Assembly (NCBI GenBank): GCA_007693915.1
Contig: RECS01000082.1
Location: 1-32,280 of the forward strand
DNA length: 32,280 bases
Reading direction: 5' to 3'
Source of the DNA: Saprospirales bacterium
GTDB lineage: Bacteria; Bacteroidota; Bacteroidia; Chitinophagales; Saprospiraceae
Shown here: positions 9,594-29,892 of the stretch, piece after piece
Layout of the letters: the number at the start of each line of letters is the position of its first letter
Position numbering within the stretch: position 1 is the stretch's first letter
Program-made: the position numbers and the translations under genes
The notes under the pieces: generated by a model
Seen by the model: only the letters and a program-made list of their open reading frames with translations
Databases searched by the model: none
Told to the model about the DNA's origin: nothing

Positions 9594-12323
9594 TTAAATA
9601 TCAAATGCTTGCTGAAGAATAGACTCCTGTTGCTTGTCATGCACCTTCTTAAATCCCGTTGCAGGTGAAGCACTTTGCGGCCTACTAATTACCTTAATAT
9701 TTCCGCATCCAAAGGTAGTTGCGACAAACCACCATGCTCCCATATTAAAAGGTTCTTCCTGAACCCAATAGAGTTCAGCGTTACCATACTTTTTGAAAAG
9801 CTCTTTAAGCTGATTCATCGGAAAGGGATACAACTGCTCTACACGAATAATAGGAATAGCCTTGATATCATGATCGTCTCTGTACTTTTTCAGATCATAA
9901 AAAACTTTTCCACTGCAAAGCAATATTCGCTTGGCTTTAACTTTTTTCCTTTCAGTGTAAATGGGGTCATCAAGTACCTCCTGAAACCTCTTATTACTGA
10001 AAAAATCACTCATATCACTGATACATTCGGGATGTCTCAAAAGTGATTTAGGAGCCATAATAATCAGCGGTTTTCTAAAATCCCAAGTTAGCTGTCTTCG
10101 CAATATATGGAAAAGGTTAGCGGGCGTAGTCATATTGGCTACCACAATATTATTGTTAGCACATGCCTGAAGAAAACGCTCCAGCCTCGCGCTGGAATGC
10201 TCAGGTCCCTGCCCTTCAAATCCATGTGGAAGCAGCATAACCAAACCACTCATCCGCTGCCATTTGCTTTCTGCTGCGGTAATGTATTGATCTACGATCA
10301 CTTGTGCGCCATTAAAAAAGTCACCAAACTGAGCCTCCCAAATGATGAGGCTTTCTGGTGTGGCAAGAGAATAACCATACTCAAACCCCAAAACAGCAAA
10401 TTCAGATAAAAGGGAATTATAGATTCGGAATTTTGCTTGATTATCGGAAAGATTACTTAGGCGATTGTATTCCTCATAGGTATCCTTATCGTAAAAAATA
10501 CTATGTCTGTGAGAAAAAGTTCCTCTTTTAACATCCTGACCGCTCATCCTGATGTCGCTACCATCTTCGAGTATAGAGGCATATGCCAATAGCTCAGCCA
10601 TACCCCAATCCAATGTATTGTCCTTTTTCAGTGTTTGCACTGCCTTAAGCAGACGGTTGACTTTGCCTAAGGGGGTAAATCCCTTCGGGACATTGATTAA
10701 TTTACGCAAGAGTTGTATGACTCTATCCTTTGTAATCCCAGTCCTTGGGGAGGACTCAAAATCAATATTTTCAACTTTTTTTCTTAGCATTCTCCATGCT
10801 TGCTCAGGCTCCTGATATTCATATGGCAAGGACTCCTCCTTAACTGATTCCAACCTTTTCTGCAAATCAGACCAAAACTTTTTCTCCAGAGATTCAGCCA
10901 ATTTGGTTTCCACATCTCCCCTTGAAGTAAGTCGATCAACGTATACTTTTCTAGGATTGGGATGCTTGTTGACAATATTGTACATTTCGGGTTGAGTGAA
11001 CTTGGGATCATCACCCTCATTATGTCCGTGCTTGCGATAACAGACCATATCGATAAAAACATCCACTTGGAATTTTTGTCTGAACTCCATCGCCAGCTTG
11101 ACGCAATACACCACGGCTTCCGGATCGTCTCCATTGACGTGAAAAATAGGTGCCTGAATCATATTTCCAACACCTGTGCTATAGGTTGAAGACCTCGCAT
11201 CGTCAAAATCTGTGGTAAAGCCAATCTGATTATTGATAACCAAGTGAACAGTACCGCCGGTAAAATAACCAGCCAACTGACTCATTTGTGCAGTTTCATA
11301 GACAACACCCTGTCCCGCAATAGCTGCATCACCATGAATAAGAACAGGACATATTTTTCTAAAATCTGTGTCATAAAGTATATCCGCTTTAGCTCTTGAG
11401 AAACCAATCACTACAGGATTTACAGATTCTAAGTGCGAAGGATTAGGCACCAACTTCAAATTGACTTGCTTACCTGCGGGAGTATCTACCAAAGAAGAAT
11501 AACCTAAATGATATTTGACATCACCATCGCCAAAACTCAAATCCGGCACCGCTGTACCCTCAAACTCATTAAAAATATGTTCATAGGTCTTACCCATAAT
11601 ATTCGCGAGCACATTCAACCTCCCTCTGTGAGCCATTCCAATCACAATTTCTTCAACTCCGGTTTTACTACCTTCATTAATAACGGCATCTAAGGCAGGT
11701 ATAGCAGATTCTCCACCTTCAAGAGAAAATCTTTTTTGCCCAATATATTTAGTATGTAAAAAGCGTTCAAAAACTTCTGCACCATTTAATTTTTCCAGAA
11801 TCCTTTTCTTTGTCTCTAAATCCAGACCGTAATCATCTACATTTCTTATGGATTCAATTTTTTCTTTCAACCACCTGCGTTCTTCTTTATTCTTTATGTG
11901 GGTAAACTCATAGCCAATGTTTCCACAATAAATTTTATTCAGGCGATCTAATATCTCTTTCAGACTTGAATTAGCCATGCCTATTTCAGTACCTGCATAA
12001 AACTTTTTATTCAAATCTTCATCCGACAAACCGTAATCTGACAAATCAAGATGCGGTTTACGGTCTTTCCTCTGTTTTATCGGATTAGTAGTCGAAAGCA
12101 AGTGTCCTCTCGCACGAAACCCCTGAATAATTGAAAAAACTGCTAATTCCTTTTTTAGGTCTCCACCATCCGGACTTTTTCCATTCCCTGACAGCGCAAA
12201 CTCAAAGCCCTCAAAAAACAAGCGCCAACCTTCCTCTATCGTAGAAGGCTCGTTCTTAAACTTTAAATACATAGTATCAATGTATTGCGGGTGTGCATTA
12301 AACACATAAGAATATTGGGACAT
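9594..12323 (-). CDS. sucA: 2-oxoglutarate dehydrogenase E1 component
   Basis: The 909-residue product is the TPP-dependent E1 of the 2-oxoglutarate dehydrogenase complex, the TCA step from 2-oxoglutarate to succinyl-CoA. The N-terminus (YSYVFNAHPQYIDTMYLKFK) is the E2-binding type segment. Catalytic and cofactor motifs include GMAHRGRLN (229-237), GDAAIAGQG (331-339), NNQIGFTT (364-371) and YRKHGHNEGDDP (429-440). The C-terminal transketolase-like half has WEAQFGDFFNGAQVIVDQY and HGFEGQGPEHSSAR, then the end domain ELYWVQEEPFNMGAWWF. Length is near the usual 920-940. The expected partner sucB is not downstream here: the next 495 bp are intergenic, so E2 must be encoded elsewhere. The ATG at 12323 gives the standard start. 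No convincing promoter box is visible. Confidence 0.97.
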   Translation of the reverse strand: MSQYSYVFNAHPQYIDTMYLKFKNEPSTIEEGWRLFFEGFEFALSGNGKSPDGGDLKKELAVFSIIQGFRARGHLLSTTNPIKQRKDRKPHLDLSDYGLSDEDLNKKFYAGTEIGMANSSLKEILDRLNKIYCGNIGYEFTHIKNKEERRWLKEKIESIRNVDDYGLDLETKKRILEKLNGAEVFERFLHTKYIGQKRFSLEGGESAIPALDAVINEGSKTGVEEIVIGMAHRGRLNVLANIMGKTYEHIFNEFEGTAVPDLSFGDGDVKYHLGYSSLVDTPAGKQVNLKLVPNPSHLESVNPVVIGFSRAKADILYDTDFRKICPVLIHGDAAIAGQGVVYETAQMSQLAGYFTGGTVHLVINNQIGFTTDFDDARSSTYSTGVGNMIQAPIFHVNGDDPEAVVYCVKLAMEFRQKFQVDVFIDMVCYRKHGHNEGDDPKFTQPEMYNIVNKHPNPRKVYVDRLTSRGDVETKLAESLEKKFWSDLQKRLESVKEESLPYEYQEPEQAWRMLRKKVENIDFESSPRTGITKDRVIQLLRKLINVPKGFTPLGKVNRLLKAVQTLKKDNTLDWGMAELLAYASILEDGSDIRMSGQDVKRGTFSHRHSIFYDKDTYEEYNRLSNLSDNQAKFRIYNSLLSEFAVLGFEYGYSLATPESLIIWEAQFGDFFNGAQVIVDQYITAAESKWQRMSGLVMLLPHGFEGQGPEHSSARLERFLQACANNNIVVANMTTPANLFHILRRQLTWDFRKPLIIMAPKSLLRHPECISDMSDFFSNKRFQEVLDDPIYTERKKVKAKRILLCSGKVFYDLKKYRDDHDIKAIPIIRVEQLYPFPMNQLKELFKKYGNAELYWVQEEPFNMGAWWFVATTFGCGNIKVISRPQSASPATGFKKVHDKQQESILQQAFDI

Positions 12324-12741: not shown

Positions 12742-13071
12742 TTACAAGCTTTCAGGTGCTAATTTCACCTTTAAGCCATCAAGCTTTTCAGTGATTTTTA
12801 TCTGGCAGCCCAATCTGCTGTTCTCCATCACATCGAAAGCCTGATCAAGCATATCCTCTTCATCTTCTGTCGCCTCATTTAATTCATGCTCAGAAAGAAC
12901 ATAGACATGACAAGTAGAGCAAAGTGCCATACCACCGCAGGTTGCTTGTATATCGTATCCACTACCTTTCAGTACCTCCATAAGATTCAAGTTCATGTCA
13001 ACCGGTGCTTCCACTAAATTGTGTGCATCATCACGGTCTGTAACTTCAATTTTGATTAATCCGTTTTCCAT
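12742..13071 (-). CDS. Adrenodoxin-type [2Fe-2S] ferredoxin
   Basis: The 109-residue product is a soluble electron carrier of the adrenodoxin / ISC-type ferredoxin family. The cluster ligands are Cys45, Cys51, Cys54 (CGGMALCSTC, spacing C-x5-C-x2-C) and Cys89 (RLGCQI), as in the family. The N-terminal beta strands (LIKIEVTDRDDAHNLVEAPV) and an acidic helix (EATEDEEDML, about 66-75) expected to dock the reductase are visible. The gene begins 9 nt after the stop of the ferredoxin-NADP reductase gene on the same strand, so the two almost surely form one electron-transfer module fed by NADPH. No iron-sulfur assembly gene is near, so the final electron acceptor is unknown. Full length, ATG start. 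Confidence 0.93.
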   Translation of the reverse strand: MENGLIKIEVTDRDDAHNLVEAPVDMNLNLMEVLKGSGYDIQATCGGMALCSTCHVYVLSEHELNEATEDEEDMLDQAFDVMENSRLGCQIKITEKLDGLKVKLAPESL

Positions 13072-13080
13072 TACATTAAA

Positions 13081-14085
13081 TTATAATCCGTCAATTCCTG
13101 TAACGGTGGTGTATTTAAAAGATAACTTTTTATCCGGGTGAATAATTTTATAAGCAGATTGACACATCAGTGTAGCCTCATGAAATCCACATAGTATCAA
13201 TTTTAATTTGCCGGGATAGGTATTGATATCACCAATAGCAAAAATGCCTTCTATATTAGTAGAGTAATCAAAGGTGTTGACTCTAATGGCATTGTTTTCT
13301 ATTTCCAGCCCCCAGTCGCCAATAGGTCCAAGCTTGGGAAGTAATCCAAAAAGAGGAATAAAACTATCCGTCTCCAAATGTATTGCGCCCTCAGTCTTTT
13401 GATTGATAACTACCTTCTCTAATTGCTGTTCCCCTACCAAACCTACTACCTGAGCACTGGTAATTAATTTTATTTGTCCACTTTCGCTCAACGCTTTTAC
13501 TTTTGATACAGAATCCAGTGCACCTCTAAAACCCTCTCTCCGATGGACAAGAGTAACTTGCTCTGCAATTTCAGCTAAAATAATGGTCCAGTCCAATGCA
13601 GAATCTCCACCACCAGCAACCACTACTTTCTGTCCGCGAAACTGTTCCGGATCCTTAATCATGTAATATACACCATTATCTTCGTAATCCGCTATGTTGG
13701 GGATAGGTGGCTTTCTAGGCTCAAAGGATCCCAGTCCACCAGCGATAGCAACCACTGGTGCTTTGTGCGATGTGCCTTTATTGGTAGTAACTATAAAATT
13801 ACCATCTGTATCCCTTTCTATGGTTTCAGCACGTTCTCCAAGGGTAAAACCAGGTTTGAAGGGGGCAATTTGTTCCATCAAATTATTAACCAGTTCGCCG
13901 GCATCAACAGTCGGATAACCGGGTATGTCATAAATGGGCTTTTTTGGATAAATCTCTGTCAGCTGTCCTCCAGGTTGAGCTAAACTATCAATTAGGTGGC
14001 ATTTAAGCTTCAATAATCCTGCCTCAAAAACTGCAAAAAGTCCTGTAGGACCGGCACCGATGATAAGGATATCGGTTTGAATCAT
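13081..14085 (-). CDS. Thioredoxin-reductase-type ferredoxin-NADP(+) reductase
   Basis: The 334-residue flavoprotein matches the TrxR-like FNR family (YumC type): FAD-binding GAGPTG (10-15), GGQLTEIYPKKPIYDIPGYP (39-58), NAD(P)-binding GGGDSALD (158-165) followed by HRREGFRG (181-188), whose arginines favour NADPH, and the second FAD motif AIGDINTYPGK (283-293). The CxxC redox pair of true thioredoxin reductases is missing, which supports FNR over TrxR. It transfers electrons between NADPH and a ferredoxin, and the ferredoxin gene lies 9 nt downstream. Start is ATG 14085. The gene begins 52 nt after the enoyl-CoA hydratase stop and may be read with it. Confidence 0.92.
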   Translation of the reverse strand: MIQTDILIIGAGPTGLFAVFEAGLLKLKCHLIDSLAQPGGQLTEIYPKKPIYDIPGYPTVDAGELVNNLMEQIAPFKPGFTLGERAETIERDTDGNFIVTTNKGTSHKAPVVAIAGGLGSFEPRKPPIPNIADYEDNGVYYMIKDPEQFRGQKVVVAGGGDSALDWTIILAEIAEQVTLVHRREGFRGALDSVSKVKALSESGQIKLITSAQVVGLVGEQQLEKVVINQKTEGAIHLETDSFIPLFGLLPKLGPIGDWGLEIENNAIRVNTFDYSTNIEGIFAIGDINTYPGKLKLILCGFHEATLMCQSAYKIIHPDKKLSFKYTTVTGIDGL

Positions 14086-14137
14086 CTTTTTATTTTTTAA
14101 GTCGGTACAAATAATTGTATTATAGGTAAATTAAAAA

Positions 14138-14923
14138 TTACTGACCTTTAAAATTAGCAGATCTTTTTTCAACAAAAGCAGAAACGCCCTCCTGCAAATC
14201 CTCAGACCCCATACATCTGCCAAAAGCCTGAATCTCTTCTTCAAAACCATCCAACTCAGGATCGTAATATGCATTCACACAGTGAATTATTTCTTTAATA
14301 GCAAGGGGAGCCATTTTTGATACAGTTTGAATAATTGATTTTGCCCTGTCCAACAACTCTTCTTGCTTAACGACTTCGTTGACAAGACCTAATTGCTGTG
14401 CTTTTTCCGCATCAATCATTTCACAGGTCAATAGCAAATACATTGCCTGCGCCTTGCCAACATACCGCGCAAGGCGTTGGGTCGCAGAATATCCGGGTGT
14501 CAGTCCCAATTTTGCTTCAGGCTGACCAAAACGAGCATTCTCTGAAGCTATTCTCAGATGACAAGCCATAGCCAATTCCAACCCGCCTCCAAGCGCGAAT
14601 CCATTGATAGCAGCTATCACGGGAACGGGAGCTTTTTCAAAACGACCGAAAACTTCAACACCTTGGCGTGCTAGTTCAACACCCCCCTCCTTTGCTAAAT
14701 GAGGAAAATTTTTAATATCCGCACCGGCTGCAAAAGCCCGATCGCCCTCACCGGTAAGAATAATCCCGTGGAGCGTTTTATCCAAATTCAACAAATAGGC
14801 GAGTGCATTGTCCAGTTCATCTATCAATTCCGGGCTAAGTGCATTTAACGCTTTTGGTCTGTTGAGAAAAATGGTGGCTATACCCTCCTCTCGCTCTAAT
14901 CTAATATTTTTATATTCCTGCAT
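14138..14923 (-). CDS. Enoyl-CoA hydratase
   Basis: The 261-residue product is a crotonase-family enzyme that adds water to trans-2-enoyl-CoA. Oxyanion-hole segments AFAAGADIKNF (63-73) and NGFALGGGLELAMAC (107-121) and both catalytic glutamates (Glu116 in GGGLE and Glu136 in FGQPE) are present, which supports a hydratase rather than an isomerase or an inactive relative. Length is the usual ~260. The frame stays open upstream to 15022, but those 33 residues (many F, I, K) are not family-like and a consensus -7 box lies within them, so ATG 14923 (MQEYKNIRLE) is the start. Which pathway it serves, fatty-acid or amino-acid degradation, is not shown by its neighbours. Confidence 0.93.
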   Translation of the reverse strand: MQEYKNIRLEREEGIATIFLNRPKALNALSPELIDELDNALAYLLNLDKTLHGIILTGEGDRAFAAGADIKNFPHLAKEGGVELARQGVEVFGRFEKAPVPVIAAINGFALGGGLELAMACHLRIASENARFGQPEAKLGLTPGYSATQRLARYVGKAQAMYLLLTCEMIDAEKAQQLGLVNEVVKQEELLDRAKSIIQTVSKMAPLAIKEIIHCVNAYYDPELDGFEEEIQAFGRCMGSEDLQEGVSAFVEKRSANFKGQ

Positions 14924-19724: not shown

Positions 19725-21374
19725 TTGACAAAGAAACTTATGCAAAATATAGCTTTTCAAACAGGGATTTTAATTTTCGCTTTAATACTGGGTTTATTGG
19801 GTTTTTCCAATCGCGCCCAAGCTCAGGATTTGCCTTCCGAGCAAATTGAGGTTATCAGGAGTTTTGATGCTCGATTGATGGATGCAGAAAAATTGCGTTT
19901 GCGTCCCGCTCTACCAGGACCTGATACAAGCAGATCAAGAACTTATCAATACCGTCTGACTTCAAGACCATTTGAGGTAACTTACCGGGAGGCAGAAATC
20001 AGACCTATTGCCATGAGAACAGAATCATTACCTGATGGTTACAATGGCTTTCTCAGAGCAGGATATGGCTTTCCAAATTTTCCACTTTTCGAAGCCGGGT
20101 ATTACATTACGGAAAGCAACAATCTATCATTGGGAGTATCTGCAAGTCATCATCAGGCGAGAAAAAAAGATATAGACCATCAGCGCTTCAGAGATACACA
20201 TGTTGGTATTTACGGGCAGTTTGTTATCAATCCGGCTTTGACTTTGTCTGCCGACTTGTCATACGATGTCAATGACTATTACTACTACGCCATTAATTTC
20301 CTTCCCGATACCACTATTGATGAAAATGTATTAAAGCGATACAACAACTTCACTGCCGAAACGCGTCTTTTCAATTCCGAAACTACCTCCAATGGTCTTG
20401 ATTACTTTGCAGGTTTTAAAATCAACCACCTCACAGACAACCGGGCAAGCCGGGAACACAATATAAAGATTGATTTTGGCGGAAAAAAATGGATTAACGG
20501 CAAACATCCGGTTTCTGTAGAAATTATTTTAGATTTTACTAATCTGCGTGATACACTTGTCCGAAATCTAAATAATTTCTCACTGCGTCCTGACTTTACC
20601 TTTATTGGCGATAAGTTTACAGTCAAAGGTGGATTAAATCTCAGTTCAAGTAATGATGAGTTTTTCTTTTTTCCAATACTCCGTGCCGATTATAAACTCG
20701 CTGGACAAACCGTGGTACTTTTTGCAGGCGTGGACGGAGATTTGTATAAAAACAACTACACCAATCTGTCTTCTTATAATCCCTTCATCAACCATAGACT
20801 TGACACGCTTGGCAACAGTCAGAGAACCAAGATTTACGGAGGATTAAAAGGCTTGTATCAAAGTTTTCGTTACTCGGCTGAATTCCGCTATCAATCCATT
20901 GACAGAATGGCATTTTACCTTCCGAACAATGACCTCCAATACCTGTTCGATCCCATTTTTGACGAAACAAAAGTGTATAGCATTGAAGCTACGCTTTCTA
21001 AACAGCTCAATGAGAACATGCACCTTCAGACACATTTGACTTATAATTTCTTCAATTCGGATAATATTGAAGAAGCCTGGCATATTCCAGCCTTTGTGTG
21101 GAACTTTGGTGGACTGTACACCAGTCTTGATAAAAAATTACAGATTAGAGGTAACCTATTTGTTGAAAGTGGGGTGAACTATCGGAATGAGGAGGGAGAA
21201 GCTGAAAGCCTAAAAGGAATGGTCGACCTGAATCTCGGAGCTGACTACTTTTTTACAGAAAACATTGCTGCCTTCGCCAATGTCCAAAATATTTTCAATA
21301 ACAAGCGACAGAGGTGGCTCAATTATCCTTCATTTGGGATAAATGCCCAGGTCGGCGTTTTTGTAAGGTTTTAG
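19725..21374 (+). CDS. Outer-membrane beta-barrel protein (plug-less TonB-receptor-like)
   Basis: A 549-residue protein with a signal peptide (hydrophobic IAFQTGILIFALILGLLGF, cleavage near RAQAQ) and then a long series of alternating, aromatic-rich strands (e.g. GFLRAGYGFPNFPLFEAGYY, LSLGVSASHHQ, LQIRGNLFVESGVNY) ending FGINAQVGVFVRF, with the terminal Phe typical of barrel proteins. It resembles TonB-dependent receptor barrels but has no plug or TonB box. The frame starts at TTG 19725 (MTKKLMQN); an ATG at 19740 would remove the two lysines that suit a signal peptide, so I keep the TTG, with doubt. It follows the TPR gene after 10 nt. Role unknown; a structural or assembly partner of the TPR protein is a guess. 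Confidence 0.75.
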   Translation: MTKKLMQNIAFQTGILIFALILGLLGFSNRAQAQDLPSEQIEVIRSFDARLMDAEKLRLRPALPGPDTSRSRTYQYRLTSRPFEVTYREAEIRPIAMRTESLPDGYNGFLRAGYGFPNFPLFEAGYYITESNNLSLGVSASHHQARKKDIDHQRFRDTHVGIYGQFVINPALTLSADLSYDVNDYYYYAINFLPDTTIDENVLKRYNNFTAETRLFNSETTSNGLDYFAGFKINHLTDNRASREHNIKIDFGGKKWINGKHPVSVEIILDFTNLRDTLVRNLNNFSLRPDFTFIGDKFTVKGGLNLSSSNDEFFFFPILRADYKLAGQTVVLFAGVDGDLYKNNYTNLSSYNPFINHRLDTLGNSQRTKIYGGLKGLYQSFRYSAEFRYQSIDRMAFYLPNNDLQYLFDPIFDETKVYSIEATLSKQLNENMHLQTHLTYNFFNSDNIEEAWHIPAFVWNFGGLYTSLDKKLQIRGNLFVESGVNYRNEEGEAESLKGMVDLNLGADYFFTENIAAFANVQNIFNNKRQRWLNYPSFGINAQVGVFVRF

Positions 21375-22689: not shown

Positions 22690-24501
22690 TTATCTAATTA
22701 CACTTAACCTTTTTCCTGAGAAAAACTGACCATCAGTGATGTGTAAGATATAATTTCCGGTTTGGAGACCACTAACGTCAAAATTTATTTCATTAGTTGA
22801 GCTAAAACTGTAAATGGCTAGTTGTTTACCTGATAAATCATAAACTGAAACTGAAATCTCAGCACCCAAGTCTATTCCTTCAAGTTGAATATTTACAAAA
22901 TTACCAGTTGGATTTGGGAATACTTTAATCTGATCTGGATTTATAAAGTTCTCACGAACAGAAGTAGAGGGACTAAATACGTATTCACCGGTAACTGCAT
23001 TAAATACCACATCATAAACACCAGCTACGGGCTGGATATTAGGCCCATCTTGAGTTGCGGTACCTTCAGGAAAATCTTCTGCACCCCAATTAACCGTCCA
23101 TGCAGTATCTGCTCTGAATTTAACTCCACCATCGTCATCCGGATCGAAATCAAACAATTGTACTCCTGTAGTTGTCCAAATATTCCCATCGTTGGGATCT
23201 TTATCCATAAACCAATCAACAGCACCGCCATCATCTGTATCCGGCCATTCTCCAAAAGGACCTGATCTTCCCACAATACTAATCGAATTAAATTCCTCAA
23301 TTTCATCAAAGAAATAGGCTCCTGTGGTACTGTTAAAATATACGAAATACTCCCCGGCAGGAACAGGAATATTGGGTCCATCCTGGACTGCGGTACCCTC
23401 AGGAAATGTACCGGCACCCCAATTAATACCCCAATCGTTATTCGCTCGGAATTTCATTTCACCATCAGTCAGAACCACTCGGATACTCCACTGAGTTTTA
23501 TCATTAGGATCCTGCTCCATATCGGTATCATCAATCCATCCTCCAGGGGTAGCATCTCCTATAATACTCACGACATCAAACTCTTCTACCAAGAGAAAAT
23601 CATACTCCAGAGTTGAGCTATTGAAGGTTACGATGTACTCCCCTGCTTCATCAACGAAAATATTATCACCATTGGGCACAGCTACTCCTGTAGGAAAAGT
23701 GTCTCCACCCCAGTTTACAGCCCAATCGTTTTCAGCTCTGAATTTTAAATCACCTTCAACTAAATCTACAATACCTCTCCACAAATCTGTGTTATTAGCA
23801 TCTCTTTGGAGGTGAGTATCCTCATCCCATCCTCCAGGAGTTGCATCCCCAATAATGCTGATGGAATCATAACCTACTATTAATTCGAATTCATAATATG
23901 CAGCTTCAACATCAAAAGTAATCGAATACAAACCAGCTTGATCTACCGGAATATTGGGACCATCTAGCTCAGCCTGTCCTTCCGGAAAGTCTTCTCCACC
24001 CCAATTAATCGCCCAATCACCATCCTGCCTAAACTTAATATCCCCAGCCTCAAGCATTATAGTTAGGGAATAAAGAGTAAATGCATCATTAGGGAACATA
24101 AACACATCTCTATCCCAGCCAAATGGCGTTGCGGAACCAATAATACCAATAGTGCCATCATAATCAAAAAAATACTCACCGGTCTCGGAGTTAAAAGTAA
24201 TCAAGTAATCACCTTCAACAACTTGTAAATTAGGGCCATCTTGCTCACCTGTACCGAAAGGAAAACCGGTATCTCCCCAATTCACCTCCCAGTCATCATC
24301 TGCCCGGAATTTTAATTCTCCGTCAACTAAAGCGACTTCAAGGGTCCAAACATTGGGATCTTCATCATCTTGAACCATTGGCGTGCTTGCGTCCCAACCT
24401 TGGGGAGTGGCAGTACCAATGATACCGACAGTAGAAAACTGTCCGTAAGCAGTTGATCCAAAAACTGCTATCATCACAAAAAATAGTAAATGTCGCATCA
24501 T
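22690..24501 (-). CDS. T9SS-secreted protein with five SusE/F-like repeats
   Basis: The 603-residue product has a signal peptide (1-20, AYG|QF), five tandem repeats of about 93-97 residues starting near 25, 118, 214, 311 and 407, and a T9SS type A sorting domain (about 524-603: KVFPNPTGNFVNIQLEG, VYDLSGKQLAIY, LQTGNYILHI, GKRLSVIR). Each repeat opens with IIGxATPxGW, has a central KFRxxxxWxxNWG motif and closes with AGxYxxxFNxxTGEYxF, like the starch-binding immunoglobulin-like/CBM domains of SusE and SusF. It is expected to sit on the cell surface or be released and to bind glycan, perhaps alpha-glucan (inference). Unlike SusE/F it has no lipobox. It is divergent from susC/susD and probably shares their control region. 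Confidence 0.82.
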   Translation of the reverse strand: MMRHLLFFVMIAVFGSTAYGQFSTVGIIGTATPQGWDASTPMVQDDEDPNVWTLEVALVDGELKFRADDDWEVNWGDTGFPFGTGEQDGPNLQVVEGDYLITFNSETGEYFFDYDGTIGIIGSATPFGWDRDVFMFPNDAFTLYSLTIMLEAGDIKFRQDGDWAINWGGEDFPEGQAELDGPNIPVDQAGLYSITFDVEAAYYEFELIVGYDSISIIGDATPGGWDEDTHLQRDANNTDLWRGIVDLVEGDLKFRAENDWAVNWGGDTFPTGVAVPNGDNIFVDEAGEYIVTFNSSTLEYDFLLVEEFDVVSIIGDATPGGWIDDTDMEQDPNDKTQWSIRVVLTDGEMKFRANNDWGINWGAGTFPEGTAVQDGPNIPVPAGEYFVYFNSTTGAYFFDEIEEFNSISIVGRSGPFGEWPDTDDGGAVDWFMDKDPNDGNIWTTTGVQLFDFDPDDDGGVKFRADTAWTVNWGAEDFPEGTATQDGPNIQPVAGVYDVVFNAVTGEYVFSPSTSVRENFINPDQIKVFPNPTGNFVNIQLEGIDLGAEISVSVYDLSGKQLAIYSFSSTNEINFDVSGLQTGNYILHITDGQFFSGKRLSVIR

Positions 24502-24705: not shown

Positions 24706-27693
24706 ATGTTACAAAAAACAAAAAAATCCGGTATAACGGGCTTAAAACTTGAGAAGTATCTTCTATTATTTTTACTTTTCTCGTTTACCATCACCTCCAA
24801 CATAATTTCACAAAGGACGATAAGTGGTACTGTTATAGATACAGAATCAGGAGAGCCACTTATTGGGGCTACCGTTTTTGACCGAGAGGATCAATCGAGT
24901 GGAACCATTACTGACTTTGATGGTAATTTCAACTTAGAAATCAGTGATAATGCTCAAGTCCTTGTAATCAGGTATGTCGGGTTTGAATCGCTGGAACTCA
25001 GACTAAGTGAAGAGAATTTCTATTTAATTCGCCTTTCATCAGGAAGGACATTTGATGAAGTTGTTATCATAGGATATGGTACGGTTGAAAGAGAGGATGT
25101 AACCGGGTCTATACAAACTGTTAGTTCTTCAGATTTTAATCAGGGGGCTATCACAAGTGCTCAGGAACTTTTATCCGGCAAAGTACCCGGAGTGAATATT
25201 ACCACAGGGGGTGGTGGGCCAGATGAAGGAGCGAGAATACTTATCAGAGGAAGGTCGTCTCTCGATGCAACCAATGATCCATTAATCGTAGTTGATGGAG
25301 TACCTCTTGCAACGGGTGGGATCTCGGGAAATAGAAATCCGCTTAATGTAGTTAATCCTCAGGATATTGAAAGTATAACAGTGCTAAAAGATGCTTCAGC
25401 GACGGCAATATACGGTAGTCGGGCATCAGGTGGGGTAATATTAATTACCACCAAAAGAGGAACTGTCGGTCAGCCTTTGAGAATTAATTACAATGCAAAC
25501 GTTTCTTTTGGGAGTCACTATAATAAGGTAGATGTTTTAAGCGCATCGGAATTCCGTGAAGTAATGGCAGAACAGCACCCGGATCATGTCGATCTTATGG
25601 GTACAAACAACATAGACTGGCAAGATGAAATCTACAGGACAGCTACAGGAACAGATCACAATCTAAACTTTACGGGATCGGCAATGGAAATTATCCCTTA
25701 CAGGGTTTCACTTGGCTACACCTATAAGGAAGGAATTCTTCTAACTGATCATTTTCAGCGTTACACAGCCGGATTAAATGTAAGTCCTCAGTTTTTGGAG
25801 AACAGGCTGCAAGTCAATCTGGGTGCTCGCGGTATGTTTACTCAAAATCAATTTGCTGAGCGAGGTGCCATTGGAGCAGCACTGAGTTTTGACCCTACTC
25901 AGGATGTAATGGATCCCGAGAGTAAATTTAGTGGTTACTCTGTATGGACAGACACTGATGGCAATCCAAATGGTCTAGCACCAACCAATCCGCTTTCGCT
26001 TTTGGACAGAAGACTCAGGCAAGATGATTCAGAAGTAACCCGATATATATTAAATGCCTCAGCTGATTACCGTTTTTCTTTTTTTCCTGCATTAAGAGCC
26101 AACTTAAATCTAGGTTACGACTATTCCAAAGGTGAGGGAGGTGTAAATATTTTGGGAGAAAATCAAGTTGCATATGCATTTGATGCTGTTTTTGGTGGTG
26201 GAGTAAAAAACACTTACGAAGAAGTTAGAAAAAATACACTTTTGGAATTTTATCTCAATTATAGGGAGAGATTCGGGCAGCACAGATTAGATGCCATGGC
26301 AGGGTATTCCTGGCAACACTTTTTCGATGAAAATTCATTTTTCAGATCTGATGTAGCAGGGACCGAAGATTTTATCATTGATCAGCGAGGTTTGGCCAGA
26401 GAACTGTATTTACTATCTGTTTTTGGAAGAGTAAACTATGTTTTTGATGATCGATTACTTTTAACATTCACCCTAAGAGCAGATGCAACTTCGCGTTTTG
26501 CTCCTGAAAACAGATGGGGGTATTTTCCGGCTATAGCGACTGCTTACCGCATAATTGACAACGACAACACTTATTTCAACAACCTTCGTTTAAGGGCTGG
26601 TTGGGGATTAACAGGGCAGCAAGACATAGGTGGTTACTATATCTATCAAGCCGTTTATGAGGCAAGTCTTGACAATGCACGATACAGACTTGGAGATGAT
26701 TTTATTACCACCTTAAGGCCAAATGGTTATGATAGAAACATCAAATGGGAAGAAACTGAAACCTATAATATCGGACTGGATTTTACTATTATTGAAAACC
26801 GCCTTTCAGGTTCGTTAGATTTGTATAAAAGACTTACAGATGATTTATTGGGTTTTGTAGATGTTCCTGCCGGAACGAATCTTACCAACAGGGTATTTAC
26901 TAATGTTGGAAGCATGGAAAGTGAGGGACTTGAACTTTCACTGATTACCACCCCATTGTATACCCAAAATATCCGATGGGACCTCGCTGCTAATTTTGCC
27001 TACAACAAAAGTATCATTACCGGGCTTACGGCTACAGATGATGAAGATTTCCCGGGTATTCCTGTAGGTGGTATTTCTGGTGGTGTTGGTTCCTTAATTC
27101 AGATTCATAATGTGGGCAATGAACCTTCTTCTTTTTATGTACTCGAACAGCTTTACGATGAAAATGGTAGATTAATTGAAGGTGAGTTTGCAGATAGAAA
27201 CATGGATGGAACGGTAGGTCTGGCAGACAGGTATATTTTCAAAAGACCTGATCCAAGATGGACAATTGGTATTAGTAACAATATTAATTATCAAAACTGG
27301 GATTTCTCTTTTGCCGGAAGAGCGCACTTTGGAAATTATATATATAATAATGTCGCCACAAATCTGGGTAATTATAACCTAATGTACCACCCTACTAATT
27401 ATCTCGTAAATATTCACAGGTCTGCAGTTGAAAACAATATCAAAGATCAGGCAAATGTCACTTTTAGTGATCATTTTGTTACCAATGGTTCCTTTTTCAG
27501 AATGGACCACATTACACTTGGCTACACTTTTAATAATTTGATCGTAGATAATTTAAGAGTTTACGCTACTGTACAAAATGCTTTTGTAATTACAACATAT
27601 GATGGCTTAGACCCGGAAATACCCGGCGGAATTGACAATAATTTTTATCCAAGGCCCAGAACGATTTTAATGGGAGTATCCTTAACATTTTAA
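24706..27693 (+). CDS. SusC/RagA-family TonB-dependent outer-membrane transporter
   Basis: The 995-residue product is the pore half of a SusCD glycan importer. It has a signal peptide (to about residue 36, IISQ|R), a carboxypeptidase-regulatory-like domain (about 37-112, ISGTVIDTESGEPLIGATVF...ITDFDGNFNLEI), a TonB box region FDEVVIIGYGTV (116-127), the plug domain (about 128-250, SAQELLSGKVPGVNITTGGG, IRGRSSLDATNDPLIVVDGVP, TVLKDASATAIYGSRASGGVI) and a barrel ending in GVSLTF. TonB-powered movement of the plug admits substrate held by SusD. Length is normal. The SusD gene starts 12 nt later. Upstream is the shared divergent promoter region. Substrate inferred to be an oligosaccharide because of the SusE/F-like neighbours. 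Confidence 0.95.
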   Translation: MLQKTKKSGITGLKLEKYLLLFLLFSFTITSNIISQRTISGTVIDTESGEPLIGATVFDREDQSSGTITDFDGNFNLEISDNAQVLVIRYVGFESLELRLSEENFYLIRLSSGRTFDEVVIIGYGTVEREDVTGSIQTVSSSDFNQGAITSAQELLSGKVPGVNITTGGGGPDEGARILIRGRSSLDATNDPLIVVDGVPLATGGISGNRNPLNVVNPQDIESITVLKDASATAIYGSRASGGVILITTKRGTVGQPLRINYNANVSFGSHYNKVDVLSASEFREVMAEQHPDHVDLMGTNNIDWQDEIYRTATGTDHNLNFTGSAMEIIPYRVSLGYTYKEGILLTDHFQRYTAGLNVSPQFLENRLQVNLGARGMFTQNQFAERGAIGAALSFDPTQDVMDPESKFSGYSVWTDTDGNPNGLAPTNPLSLLDRRLRQDDSEVTRYILNASADYRFSFFPALRANLNLGYDYSKGEGGVNILGENQVAYAFDAVFGGGVKNTYEEVRKNTLLEFYLNYRERFGQHRLDAMAGYSWQHFFDENSFFRSDVAGTEDFIIDQRGLARELYLLSVFGRVNYVFDDRLLLTFTLRADATSRFAPENRWGYFPAIATAYRIIDNDNTYFNNLRLRAGWGLTGQQDIGGYYIYQAVYEASLDNARYRLGDDFITTLRPNGYDRNIKWEETETYNIGLDFTIIENRLSGSLDLYKRLTDDLLGFVDVPAGTNLTNRVFTNVGSMESEGLELSLITTPLYTQNIRWDLAANFAYNKSIITGLTATDDEDFPGIPVGGISGGVGSLIQIHNVGNEPSSFYVLEQLYDENGRLIEGEFADRNMDGTVGLADRYIFKRPDPRWTIGISNNINYQNWDFSFAGRAHFGNYIYNNVATNLGNYNLMYHPTNYLVNIHRSAVENNIKDQANVTFSDHFVTNGSFFRMDHITLGYTFNNLIVDNLRVYATVQNAFVITTYDGLDPEIPGGIDNNFYPRPRTILMGVSLTF

Positions 27694-27705: not shown

Positions 27706-29892
27706 ATGAATAAAATTGGATTATATATTATAGCACTAGGTCTTGTTCTTTTTATCTCATCGTGTTTTAAGGATCTTGACACCATTCCTTTAGATCCGAA
27801 TCAATTTACTTCTGAGGTAGCTTATAATGAGCCGGAATCATATAAGCAAGTATTGGCAAAATTATATGCCGGCCTGGCAACAACTGGGCAGGAAGGTCCC
27901 GCAGGAAGACCGGATATTTCAGGTATTGATGAAGGTTTTTCTCAATATTTAAGGGGTTATTTTTATCTGCAGCAATTACCAACGGATGAAACTATTGTAG
28001 GTTGGAATGATCAAACCATAAAAGATTTTCACAATCAAAACTGGACAAGTTCAGACCCATTTATCTTCTCATTTTACAGCAGGATTTTTTATCAGATAGC
28101 TCTTGCAAATGAATTCCTTAGGGAAACCCAGTCAAGCAGACTTGATCTTAGAGATGTTTCAGCTGAGTTACGTGAAGAAATAGCGGGATTCAGAGCTGAG
28201 GCGCGGTTTTTGAGAGCCCTGAGTTACTGGCATGCTTTGGATCTATTCAGAAATGTACCATTTATCACAGAAAATGATCCCATTGGCAAGTTTTTTCCAC
28301 AAGCAACAAATGCTCAGAATCTATTCAATTTTATTGAGTCTGAATTACTGGATATAGAAGGTCAAATAGCAGCTCCAAGAACAAACGAATATGCCCGTGC
28401 AGACCAAGCGGCAGTCTGGATGCTACTGGCTAAGCTATATCTTAATGCAGAAGTTTACATTGGACAAAACAGATATGCAGATTGTTTTGAATACACAGAA
28501 AAAGTAATCAATGCAGGATATACACTTGAACAGGAATATGAACATTTATTTTTAGCTGACAATGACAGATCAAACGAAATCATTTTTCCAATTGCATTTG
28601 ATGGAATCAGCACCCAAACATTTGGTGGTACTACATTCATTATCTTTGCTTCAACTGGTGGTCAAATGAGTCCGTCCGCCCGCGGGATAGACAATGCCTG
28701 GGGAGGACTGCGCACAACACGCGAGTTTGTCTCACTTTTCCCTGAAGGACAAGGAGGTATAGTCTCAGAAAGAAACATAGGAAATACAGCTAATTATTCC
28801 AAGGTTTATGTGCCTGGTACACACCAGGGTAATGATCCTACAGATACCAGAAACTCAATAGCTGCTCCTGTTGGGACTCAATTCTTTTTTGGTCACAAAT
28901 ACTTTCCTGAACCCAATACGGAAATACGATTTACTAGAATACCTGCTCCTGGCGCACCTGTTTTTGGCGACAACCAGGGAGAAGGTACACTCGAAATGAA
29001 TGGAGCACCTATAGTTGTACCGGAAGCCGGTTTACACTATATTGAAGTTGACTTTAGTACCATGACTTATTCAATTGAAAGACGAGATTGGGAACTGCAA
29101 GGATCGGCGGTACCTGGCTCAGAGCCTGTTACCATGGGCTGGAATCACGATGAAAGAGCACTTGAAGTAGAGATAGAATTACATGCAGGTGAAATCAGTT
29201 TCATTGGCAACAGTGACCAAGACCTTGTTCTTGGTGATAATGGTGGTGATGGAATTCTGGAAATAGGTGGAGATCCAATTACAAAGATAGAGTTTGCCGG
29301 AACCTATAAAATCTATTTGTATATAGAACAACCGGATTACAGCTACAAAATCACCACAAATGTTTTTGACAGAAGAGGCTTGTTTTTTACCAGAGGTCAA
29401 ACACTAGACATTGAGGATGTTACTCCCTTCACTCAAGGCTATGCAATAACAAAGTTCAGCAATATTACTTCAACTGGTGCAGCAGGCAGTAATTTGTCAC
29501 ATGTGGATACAGACTTTCCTTTATTCAGACTAGCCGATACCTACTTAATGGCAGCGGAAGCAGCATTGAGAGGTGGAGGAAGTACCGCACAAGCAGTAGA
29601 ATATTTCAATCGGGTGAGGCAGAGAGCTTATCAGGGTTCACTTGGCAATGTCTCAGCAGAAGAGCTCACATTAGATTTGATTTTAGAAGAACGAGGTCGT
29701 GAGCTATACTGGGAATGTCACAGGAGAACAGACTTAATTCGATTTGACCAATTTACTGACGGTACTTATGTTTGGAATTGGAAAGGAGGAGTTATGGAAG
29801 GCCAGCAAGTACCTTCTTTCCGAAATATTTACCCCATACCTGAGCAAGATTTAAACGCCAATCCCAATCTAAGACAGAACGAAGGTTATTAA
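27706..29892 (+). CDS. SusD/RagB-family lipoprotein with an inserted SusE/F-like region
   Basis: The 728-residue product is the lid subunit of the SusCD importer: lipobox LFISSC with Cys20, followed by FKDLD, a lysine-acid signal typical for surface lipoproteins; SusD TPR-like helices (about 40-290, with IAGFRAEARFLRALSYWHALDLF and AVWMLLAKLYLNAEVYIG); and the conserved C-terminal part (about 553-728, FDRRGLFFTRGQTLDIED, AITKFSN, FRLADTYLMAAEAALR, RGRELYWECHRRTDLIRFD). It is about 150-200 residues longer than usual. The extra part (about 395-552) reads as one partial and one full SusE/F-like unit: EIRFTR...FGDNQGEG...PEAGLHYIEVDFSTMTYSIE, then GSAVPG...GWNHDERALEVEIELHAGEISF...FAGTYKIYL. A terminator closes the operon. 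Confidence 0.93.
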   Translation: MNKIGLYIIALGLVLFISSCFKDLDTIPLDPNQFTSEVAYNEPESYKQVLAKLYAGLATTGQEGPAGRPDISGIDEGFSQYLRGYFYLQQLPTDETIVGWNDQTIKDFHNQNWTSSDPFIFSFYSRIFYQIALANEFLRETQSSRLDLRDVSAELREEIAGFRAEARFLRALSYWHALDLFRNVPFITENDPIGKFFPQATNAQNLFNFIESELLDIEGQIAAPRTNEYARADQAAVWMLLAKLYLNAEVYIGQNRYADCFEYTEKVINAGYTLEQEYEHLFLADNDRSNEIIFPIAFDGISTQTFGGTTFIIFASTGGQMSPSARGIDNAWGGLRTTREFVSLFPEGQGGIVSERNIGNTANYSKVYVPGTHQGNDPTDTRNSIAAPVGTQFFFGHKYFPEPNTEIRFTRIPAPGAPVFGDNQGEGTLEMNGAPIVVPEAGLHYIEVDFSTMTYSIERRDWELQGSAVPGSEPVTMGWNHDERALEVEIELHAGEISFIGNSDQDLVLGDNGGDGILEIGGDPITKIEFAGTYKIYLYIEQPDYSYKITTNVFDRRGLFFTRGQTLDIEDVTPFTQGYAITKFSNITSTGAAGSNLSHVDTDFPLFRLADTYLMAAEAALRGGGSTAQAVEYFNRVRQRAYQGSLGNVSAEELTLDLILEERGRELYWECHRRTDLIRFDQFTDGTYVWNWKGGVMEGQQVPSFRNIYPIPEQDLNANPNLRQNEGY

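Follow-up and report, generated by a model that had tools for sequence, protein, structure and literature searches.

The SusD lipoprotein encoded in the window (the whole stretch of 32,280 nucleotides from a Saprospirales bacterium that was analyzed here) has two SusE-type modules built into it, between the two parts of its SusD core. That SusE-type modules are built into the SusD lid protein stands; what follows about their origin and role is a proposal, as a whole about as likely to be right as wrong. The tandem Eb-Ec pair of binding modules of a SusE lipoprotein, without the membrane-proximal Ea domain, would have been copied into the SusD lid, entering at the loop just past the conserved tryptophan of the starch site (W332 in the window protein; W320 in Bt SusD). 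In relatives that also carry a SusE, the built-in modules would bind, adding α-glucan contacts to the lid in a fixed 1:1 ratio. In the clade to which the window belongs, capture would have passed to a T9SS protein and to the core site that SusD still has. The built-in modules would no longer bind but would have been kept because they assist in opening the lid or assembling the complex.

The gene (positions 27706 to 29892, plus strand) encodes a SusD/RagB lipoprotein of 728 amino acids that matched the SusD_RagB profile PF07980 (E = 1.4e-36), and Cys 20 ends a hydrophobic stretch whose FISSC motif, read by eye, is lipobox-like. Against the SusD model NF033071, the protein scored 435 bits, under the 725-bit cutoff, and we therefore regard it as a relative of that named starch-binding SusD, not as the protein itself. 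The original prediction, that an unusually long SusD has its conserved core split by an extra segment, was borne out by alignments that broke into two blocks, residues 38 to 346 and 551 to 728 against 3jys (E = 8e-109) and residues 23 to 335 and 567 to 728 against Bt SusD 3ck7 (E = 2e-87). From the alignment to Bt SusD and residue conservation, we place core block 1 at residues 1 to 346 (27706 to 28743, plus strand); core block 2, placed from PF07980 and the PDB sequence alignments, occupies residues 554 to 728 (29365 to 29892, plus strand). The predicted model of the full protein (mean pLDDT, 82.5; the linker at residues 349 to 375 was predicted poorly) has the SusD fold, with Z scores of 47.6 to 3jys over 455 residues and 44.6 to 3ck9. 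The residues that we take to bind starch in Bt SusD, in a numbering and offset that are likewise our assumption, are W98, D73, R81, Y296, and W320, and they align with W100, D75, R83, F306, and W332 of the window protein. Across the 72 aligned SusD rows, the equivalents of W98, D73, R81, and W320 were invariant and the Y296-equivalent position was always aromatic.

The core is interrupted past residue 346, and the whole insert covers approximately residues 363 to 552 (28792 to 29361). It had been predicted at residues 395 to 552, an interval that does hold the motifs described for it but starts ~30 residues late, so that what had been called the back half of one unit is in fact a whole unit, beginning near residue 363 and complete both in the ortholog alignment and against a SusE profile. 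Module 1 (residues 363 to 455; 28792 to 29070, plus strand) is an Eb-type β-sandwich that has lost its Trp/Lys signature and scored 47.0 bits over positions 2 to 93 of this SusE-tail profile; module 2 (residues 456 to 552; 29071 to 29361, plus strand) is an Ec-type β-sandwich that has lost its Trp/Lys/Arg signature and scored 47.5 bits over positions 95 to 189. The profile was made from 44 standalone SusE tails and zero SusD sequences; the tails were gathered with an insert-derived profile, so that the collection is not independent, although the scoring test itself is free of SusD. Residues 363 to 552 together scored 109 bits, compared with 6.7 for the best of 200 shuffles, and a run on the whole window SusD picked out residues 364 to 550.

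A profile search against SusE and SusF domains had been suggested as a check on the prediction. Pfam, including PF16411, gave no match to the window insert alone even at an E value of 5, and PDB sequences gave none at an E value of 10; it was the SusE-tail profile that found the relationship, and the link to SusE therefore needs relatives. PF16411 exceeded its curated cutoff inside 6 of 10 related SusDs scanned, three of them with two modules (L037, L101, and L102) and three with one (L039, L041, and L056). The remaining four all belong to the window's clade, L099 scoring under the PF16411 cutoff and L095, L098, and L100 giving no match. (The L041 SusD, from a Saprospiraceae record, groups with Flavobacteriaceae SusDs, which points to misbinning or transfer.) At the four loci compared (L036, L037, L101, and L102), the insert was 51 to 58% identical to the SusE tail of its own locus and about equally identical to the SusE tails of other loci. 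The insert runs from an Eb-type to an Ec-type module, the order of the SusE tail pair, and by this order the segment corresponds to SusE Eb plus Ec without Ea, in the domain nomenclature used in passages of PMC8211771.

Structure prediction agreed with this assignment. Modeled alone from a 22-row alignment, the insert formed two SusE/SusF-like β-sandwiches with a pLDDT of 89.6. Its best Foldseek match was SusF 4fe9 (E = 5e-5; Z score, 11.7), and it matched SusE 4fem and 4fch across both modules with Z scores of 11.2 and 10.9. The rmsd values to these three structures were high (5.2 to 9.5) and the Foldseek TM scores modest (0.38 to 0.50), suggesting that the angle between the modules in the model probably differs from that in the SusF and SusE structures. 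The ligand sites of Bt SusE presumably use about W192 and W336; in the 4fch alignment, the Bt SusE Trp falls at module-1 Trp1 and at module-2 Trp2.

The partner of the window SusD, a SusC/RagA TonB-dependent transporter (24706 to 27693, plus strand; TIGR04056, 719.9 bits against a cutoff of 368), ends 12 bases upstream of it. Divergent from susC is the gene for a 603-amino-acid protein (22690 to 24501, minus strand) that had been correctly identified as an exported SusE/F-like protein: PF16411 matched it in four stretches, it ends in a T9SS tail (PF18962 and TIGR04183), and a KFR..W..NWG motif recurs in each of its five modules. A simple origin of the insert from this neighbor was rejected: when aligned, its five modules all fall in the Ec-type second half of the SusE profile, but the insert pairs an Eb-type with an Ec-type module. 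The 603-amino-acid protein was the only match in a PF16411 search of its own genome, and no SusE lies beside the window SusD among the locus open reading frames inspected. Elsewhere in the window, a 549-amino-acid open reading frame (19725 to 21374, plus strand) beside a 1,044-amino-acid TPR protein had only subthreshold matches to outer-membrane barrel families. No glycoside hydrolase was found among the 16 larger open reading frames of the window that were scanned, and a different contig of the same genome (C145 of G000, catalogued as L104) carries three GH13 genes, one GH65 gene, and one MFS transporter gene. The L037 locus comprises SusC (assigned solely from position and size), SusD, SusE, a cyclomaltodextrinase-type GH13, and a T9SS-tailed GH13. 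At L149, a GH53 lies beside the insert-bearing SusD, and comparison with the GH13 enzymes of L037 suggests that substrates may differ between loci.

Comparison of 52 insert-bearing loci (the window, L034 to L037, L095 to L102, and L137 to L175) revealed two types. In type A (26 loci), a SusE-like protein of 345 to 430 amino acids is encoded directly downstream of SusD (that of L035, at 287 amino acids, is cut by a contig end). In type B (21 loci, including the window), there is no SusE, and a T9SS-tailed SusE/F protein of 593 to 637 amino acids (908 in L100) is encoded divergently upstream of SusC. SusE-like proteins were recognized here by the insert profile and T9SS tails by their similarity to the tail of the window protein; Pfam found PF14292 and PF16411 in the one SusE-like protein scanned, that of L102, and among the T9SS-tailed proteins, it was run on those of the window and L161. 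Between three and eight KFR..W..WG motifs were present in all 23 T9SS-tailed proteins. Five loci fit neither type. L034 and L097 are cut; L175 has neither a SusE nor a T9SS-tailed protein within ~8 kb on either side. L161 encodes a T9SS SusE/F-like protein (10191 to 11987) directly downstream of SusD, in the place of SusE, and L149 encodes one (12874 to 14652) downstream of SusD after SusE; these two loci are possible intermediates of a swap from SusE to the T9SS-tailed protein.

The two types also differ in the signature Trp, Lys, and Arg residues, which we take to contact ligand in SusE. Among the 26 type A inserts, module 1 has Trp1, Lys, and Trp2 in 25, 26, and 25 cases, respectively (the exception being L160), and module 2 has Lys, Arg, Asn, and Trp2 in every case. 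In type B, Trp1 and Trp2 of module 1 are absent from all 21 inserts and Lys is present in one; in module 2, Lys and Arg are each kept in 7 of the 21, Asn in 13, Trp1 in 5, and Trp2 in 4. The window insert has N376, R408, and P415 in place of the Trp, Lys, and Trp of module 1 and S498, I500, and Q505 in place of the Lys, Arg, and Trp of module 2. A GW at residues 479 and 480 is paired by one alignment with the conserved GW of the family and is placed by another two residues past the family's methionine, at the MTY; its position is ambiguous, and we prefer the latter placement. When near-copies were removed, leaving 22 type A and 20 type B inserts, the eight W/K/R columns conserved in type A were kept in type B at an average of 0.15, compared with 0.68 for the other 51 conserved columns (p = 1.5e-4, treating columns as independent). 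Position 125, one of these eight, probably holds a Trp of a core strand and not a ligand residue, and some columns of other kinds (50, 54, and 102) were lost as fully in type B. The Gly or Asp residues at positions 58, 59, 64, 70, 79, 149, and 150 (L037 numbering) were present in all 20 type B inserts.

Alignment with other SusDs, a further check proposed with the original prediction, revealed that the insert is widespread. Among 75 related SusDs, aligned after removal of duplicates and of frames shorter than 500 amino acids, the number of residues between the anchors (columns 347 to 553) was 0 to 10 in 55, 203 to 207 in 13, and 71 to 137 in 7. The distance from the conserved Trp (W332) to the D-x-R motif was 18 to 24 residues in four insertless SusDs (L013, L014, L038, and L083), 223 in the window and L037, 221 in L012, 112 to 125 in five one-module SusDs, 129 in L181, 101 in an Aquimarina SusD, and 153 in L022; L179, L180, and L182, which the simple pattern misread, are excluded from these values. 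The same loop can hold other inserts, of 85 residues in the Aquimarina SusD and 137 residues in L022 (1450 to 3453); L022 and L068, L069, and L072 carry those other inserts, with no Pfam match to that of L022 or L069.

A search of 60 genomes, the window's own included, with P0001 matched 27 at an E value of 1e-60, and besides its own genome, eight have a full two-module SusD, three in the same genus and five elsewhere in the family. Searching 396 genomes of the order with the L037 SusD, with at most two SusD candidates scored per genome, matched 182, of which 77 belong to the window's family and 105 to other families. At least 45 of the 77 (the window's own included) have a single frame of at least 727 amino acids spanning both core blocks, and two further frames of the family (G243 and G391) are cut by contig ends; among the matches listed for the 105 genomes of other families, none reaches 700 amino acids. 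Some other families of the order do have enlarged SusD frames, namely, G040, G060 (668 amino acids), G077, G090, and G111 (599 to 611 amino acids), and G040 carries the L022 insert. A search of 395 genomes of the phylum with a one-module SusD matched 90. Twelve matches outside the window's family have full-length frames of 623 to 670 amino acids, four in f25, a family of another order, and eight in f44, a family of another class. Seven of the 12 were inspected: L176 to L178 (f25) have an Ec-type module and L179 to L182 (f44) an Eb-type module, in each case in the same SusD loop as the window insert.

How often SusE modules entered this loop was examined with trees. In the SusD-core tree, the insertless L013 and L014 branch inside the insert-bearing group, as a result of which an AU test on a 33-row subset rejected strict monophyly of the two-module SusDs (p = 0.017); we read L013 and L014 as losses of the insert, though a second gain is also possible. 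In the module-pair tree (25 inserts and 27 SusE tails), one clade of inserts was not rejected (p = 0.45). A single ancient two-module insertion followed by loss of one or both modules is compatible with the single-module trees (96 and 101 columns), in which all inserts could form one clade (p-AU = 0.24 and 0.19). Against it, the four inspected inserts of f44 are Eb-type only and the three of f25 Ec-type only, the Ec-type one-module inserts group with SusE modules from their own loci or from close kin (95/81), and the SusD-core tree separates the two-module group from L039, L041, and L056 by insertless SusDs. We consider one ancient insertion somewhat unlikely relative to repeated captures at one site. 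A fuller statement, which we hold at somewhat less than even confidence, is that this SusD loop is a recurrent site of SusE capture, that the pair in the window is now a nonbinding part of the lid, and that capture has moved to the T9SS protein. On this view, the captured modules would be Eb plus Ec for the window's family and a single module elsewhere, Ec in f25 and Eb in f44.

The type B loci and three unassigned rows form one clade of 24 rows nested within type A in a quick tree (SH-aLRT, 99.9). Because type B is one clade, the disappearance of SusE and of the module-1 signature and the gain of the T9SS protein count as about one event, and their association is a correlation. The tree requires at least two changes at module-1 Trp2 and at least five at module-2 Trp2, with four needed within the window's clade alone, gain and loss not being told apart in these counts, and module-2 Trp2 is present in 5 of the 24 rows. 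The exchange of SusE for the T9SS protein would thus count as roughly one event, after which the signature decayed unevenly, in module 1 first. In the six of nine pairs for which it could be computed, dN/dS was 0.029 to 0.12 for the insert and 0.018 to 0.105 for the core, and it was higher for the insert in all six; two of the six pairs (L096/L097 and L162/L165) are from the window's clade, and dS exceeds 1.5 in four. The window-L095 pair was saturated in dS, and so the constraint on the window insert is taken from its kin.

These results bear on what the modules do. The view that the segment reflects the usual expansion of SusD loops, or an artifact of assembly or gene fusion, could appeal to Bt SusD being some tens of residues longer than 3jys at this place and to the other inserts that L022 and Aquimarina carry in the loop, but it is ruled out, with a residual probability that we consider negligible, by stop-free insert-bearing frames in at least 45 genomes, plus others, together with the module fold and the score against the SusE profile. 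It is also quite improbable that the modules serve as a passive spacer or are a mere relic, persisting only because exact excision seldom occurs: the decayed signature and a higher dN/dS in the insert than in the core would fit, and the position of the insertless L013 and L014 suggests that loss is tolerated, but the frame has stayed open in at least 45 of the 77 matching genomes of the family, the dN/dS of the insert is still only 0.029 to 0.12, and several Gly/Asp columns persist in 20 of 20 inserts of the window's type.

The original prediction had gone further, proposing that glycan capture and lid function are joined in one chain. This is plausible for the relatives that keep the signature, and type A inserts probably add α-glucan contacts to the lid; it is doubtful for the window copy, in which the signature has been replaced. 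Modules that still bind glycan there, through a remodeled site or with another substrate, would be in keeping with the retained predicted fold, the constraint on the insert in relatives, the intact SusD core site, the signature in nearly all inserts of the 26 SusE-bearing relatives, and the module-2 Trp2 of 5 of the 24 rows of the window's clade. We nonetheless judge continued binding unlikely, given that both window modules lack the Trp/Lys/Arg positions and that loss across the clade is much stronger at W/K/R than at other conserved columns. We consider it most likely that the window insert has no binding at SusE-type sites, and it would act in lid movement or assembly. A role in lid opening or assembly is our best guess because a passage of PMC9599597 reports that uptake can be restored by SusE without reliance on its starch-binding sites and because, according to passages of PMC12611786, a purified Flavobacterium johnsoniae complex contains SusE together with SusC and SusD. 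The latter complex also provides, as far as those passages describe it, a precedent for SusE next to the lid.

Among the titles and opening lines of abstracts listed from the openly accessible journal literature, a scope that makes this a weak negative, we found no description of a SusD-SusE fusion, of a domain inserted in SusD, or of a PF16411/PF07980 pair. The portions of PMC11345257 and PMC8636109 consulted describe no such SusD-SusE fusion, and the inserted domain treated in those of PMC11345257 belongs to a GH16 enzyme. Having SusE modules in one chain with the lid sets both where they sit and the ratio in which they occur. Recurrent capture followed by loss of binding, if true, would be a natural separation of the binding and uptake-promoting functions of SusE, and the modules of the window's clade, retained without their signature, allow a nonbinding role to be tested with the signature-keeping relatives as controls.

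Set against known systems, the window SusD shares the core fold and sequence of Bt SusD and 3jys, including the equivalents of W98, D73, R81, and W320, but it has ~190 extra residues, making up two SusE/F modules, between the core blocks, and N101 and W96 of Bt SusD align with Asp and Val, respectively. It has in common with the solved long SusDs 7bll (BT3013), 7nek, and 5cjz (BT4246) a SusD fold in a chain of more than 600 residues. Like the SusE/SusF lipoproteins (PF16411, with PF14292 as the SusE N-terminal domain), which are its best fold matches, the insert has both tail modules in order; unlike them, it has no lipid anchor of its own and no Ea/PF14292 domain and sits inside SusD, and the window copy lacks the Trp/Lys/Arg signature and is missed by Pfam. 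The SusCDE complex of F. johnsoniae likewise brings SusE together with SusC and SusD, but there, in the passages of PMC12611786 that describe it, SusE is described as a protein of its own with no structural relation to SusD, whereas in the window the modules lie within SusD itself.
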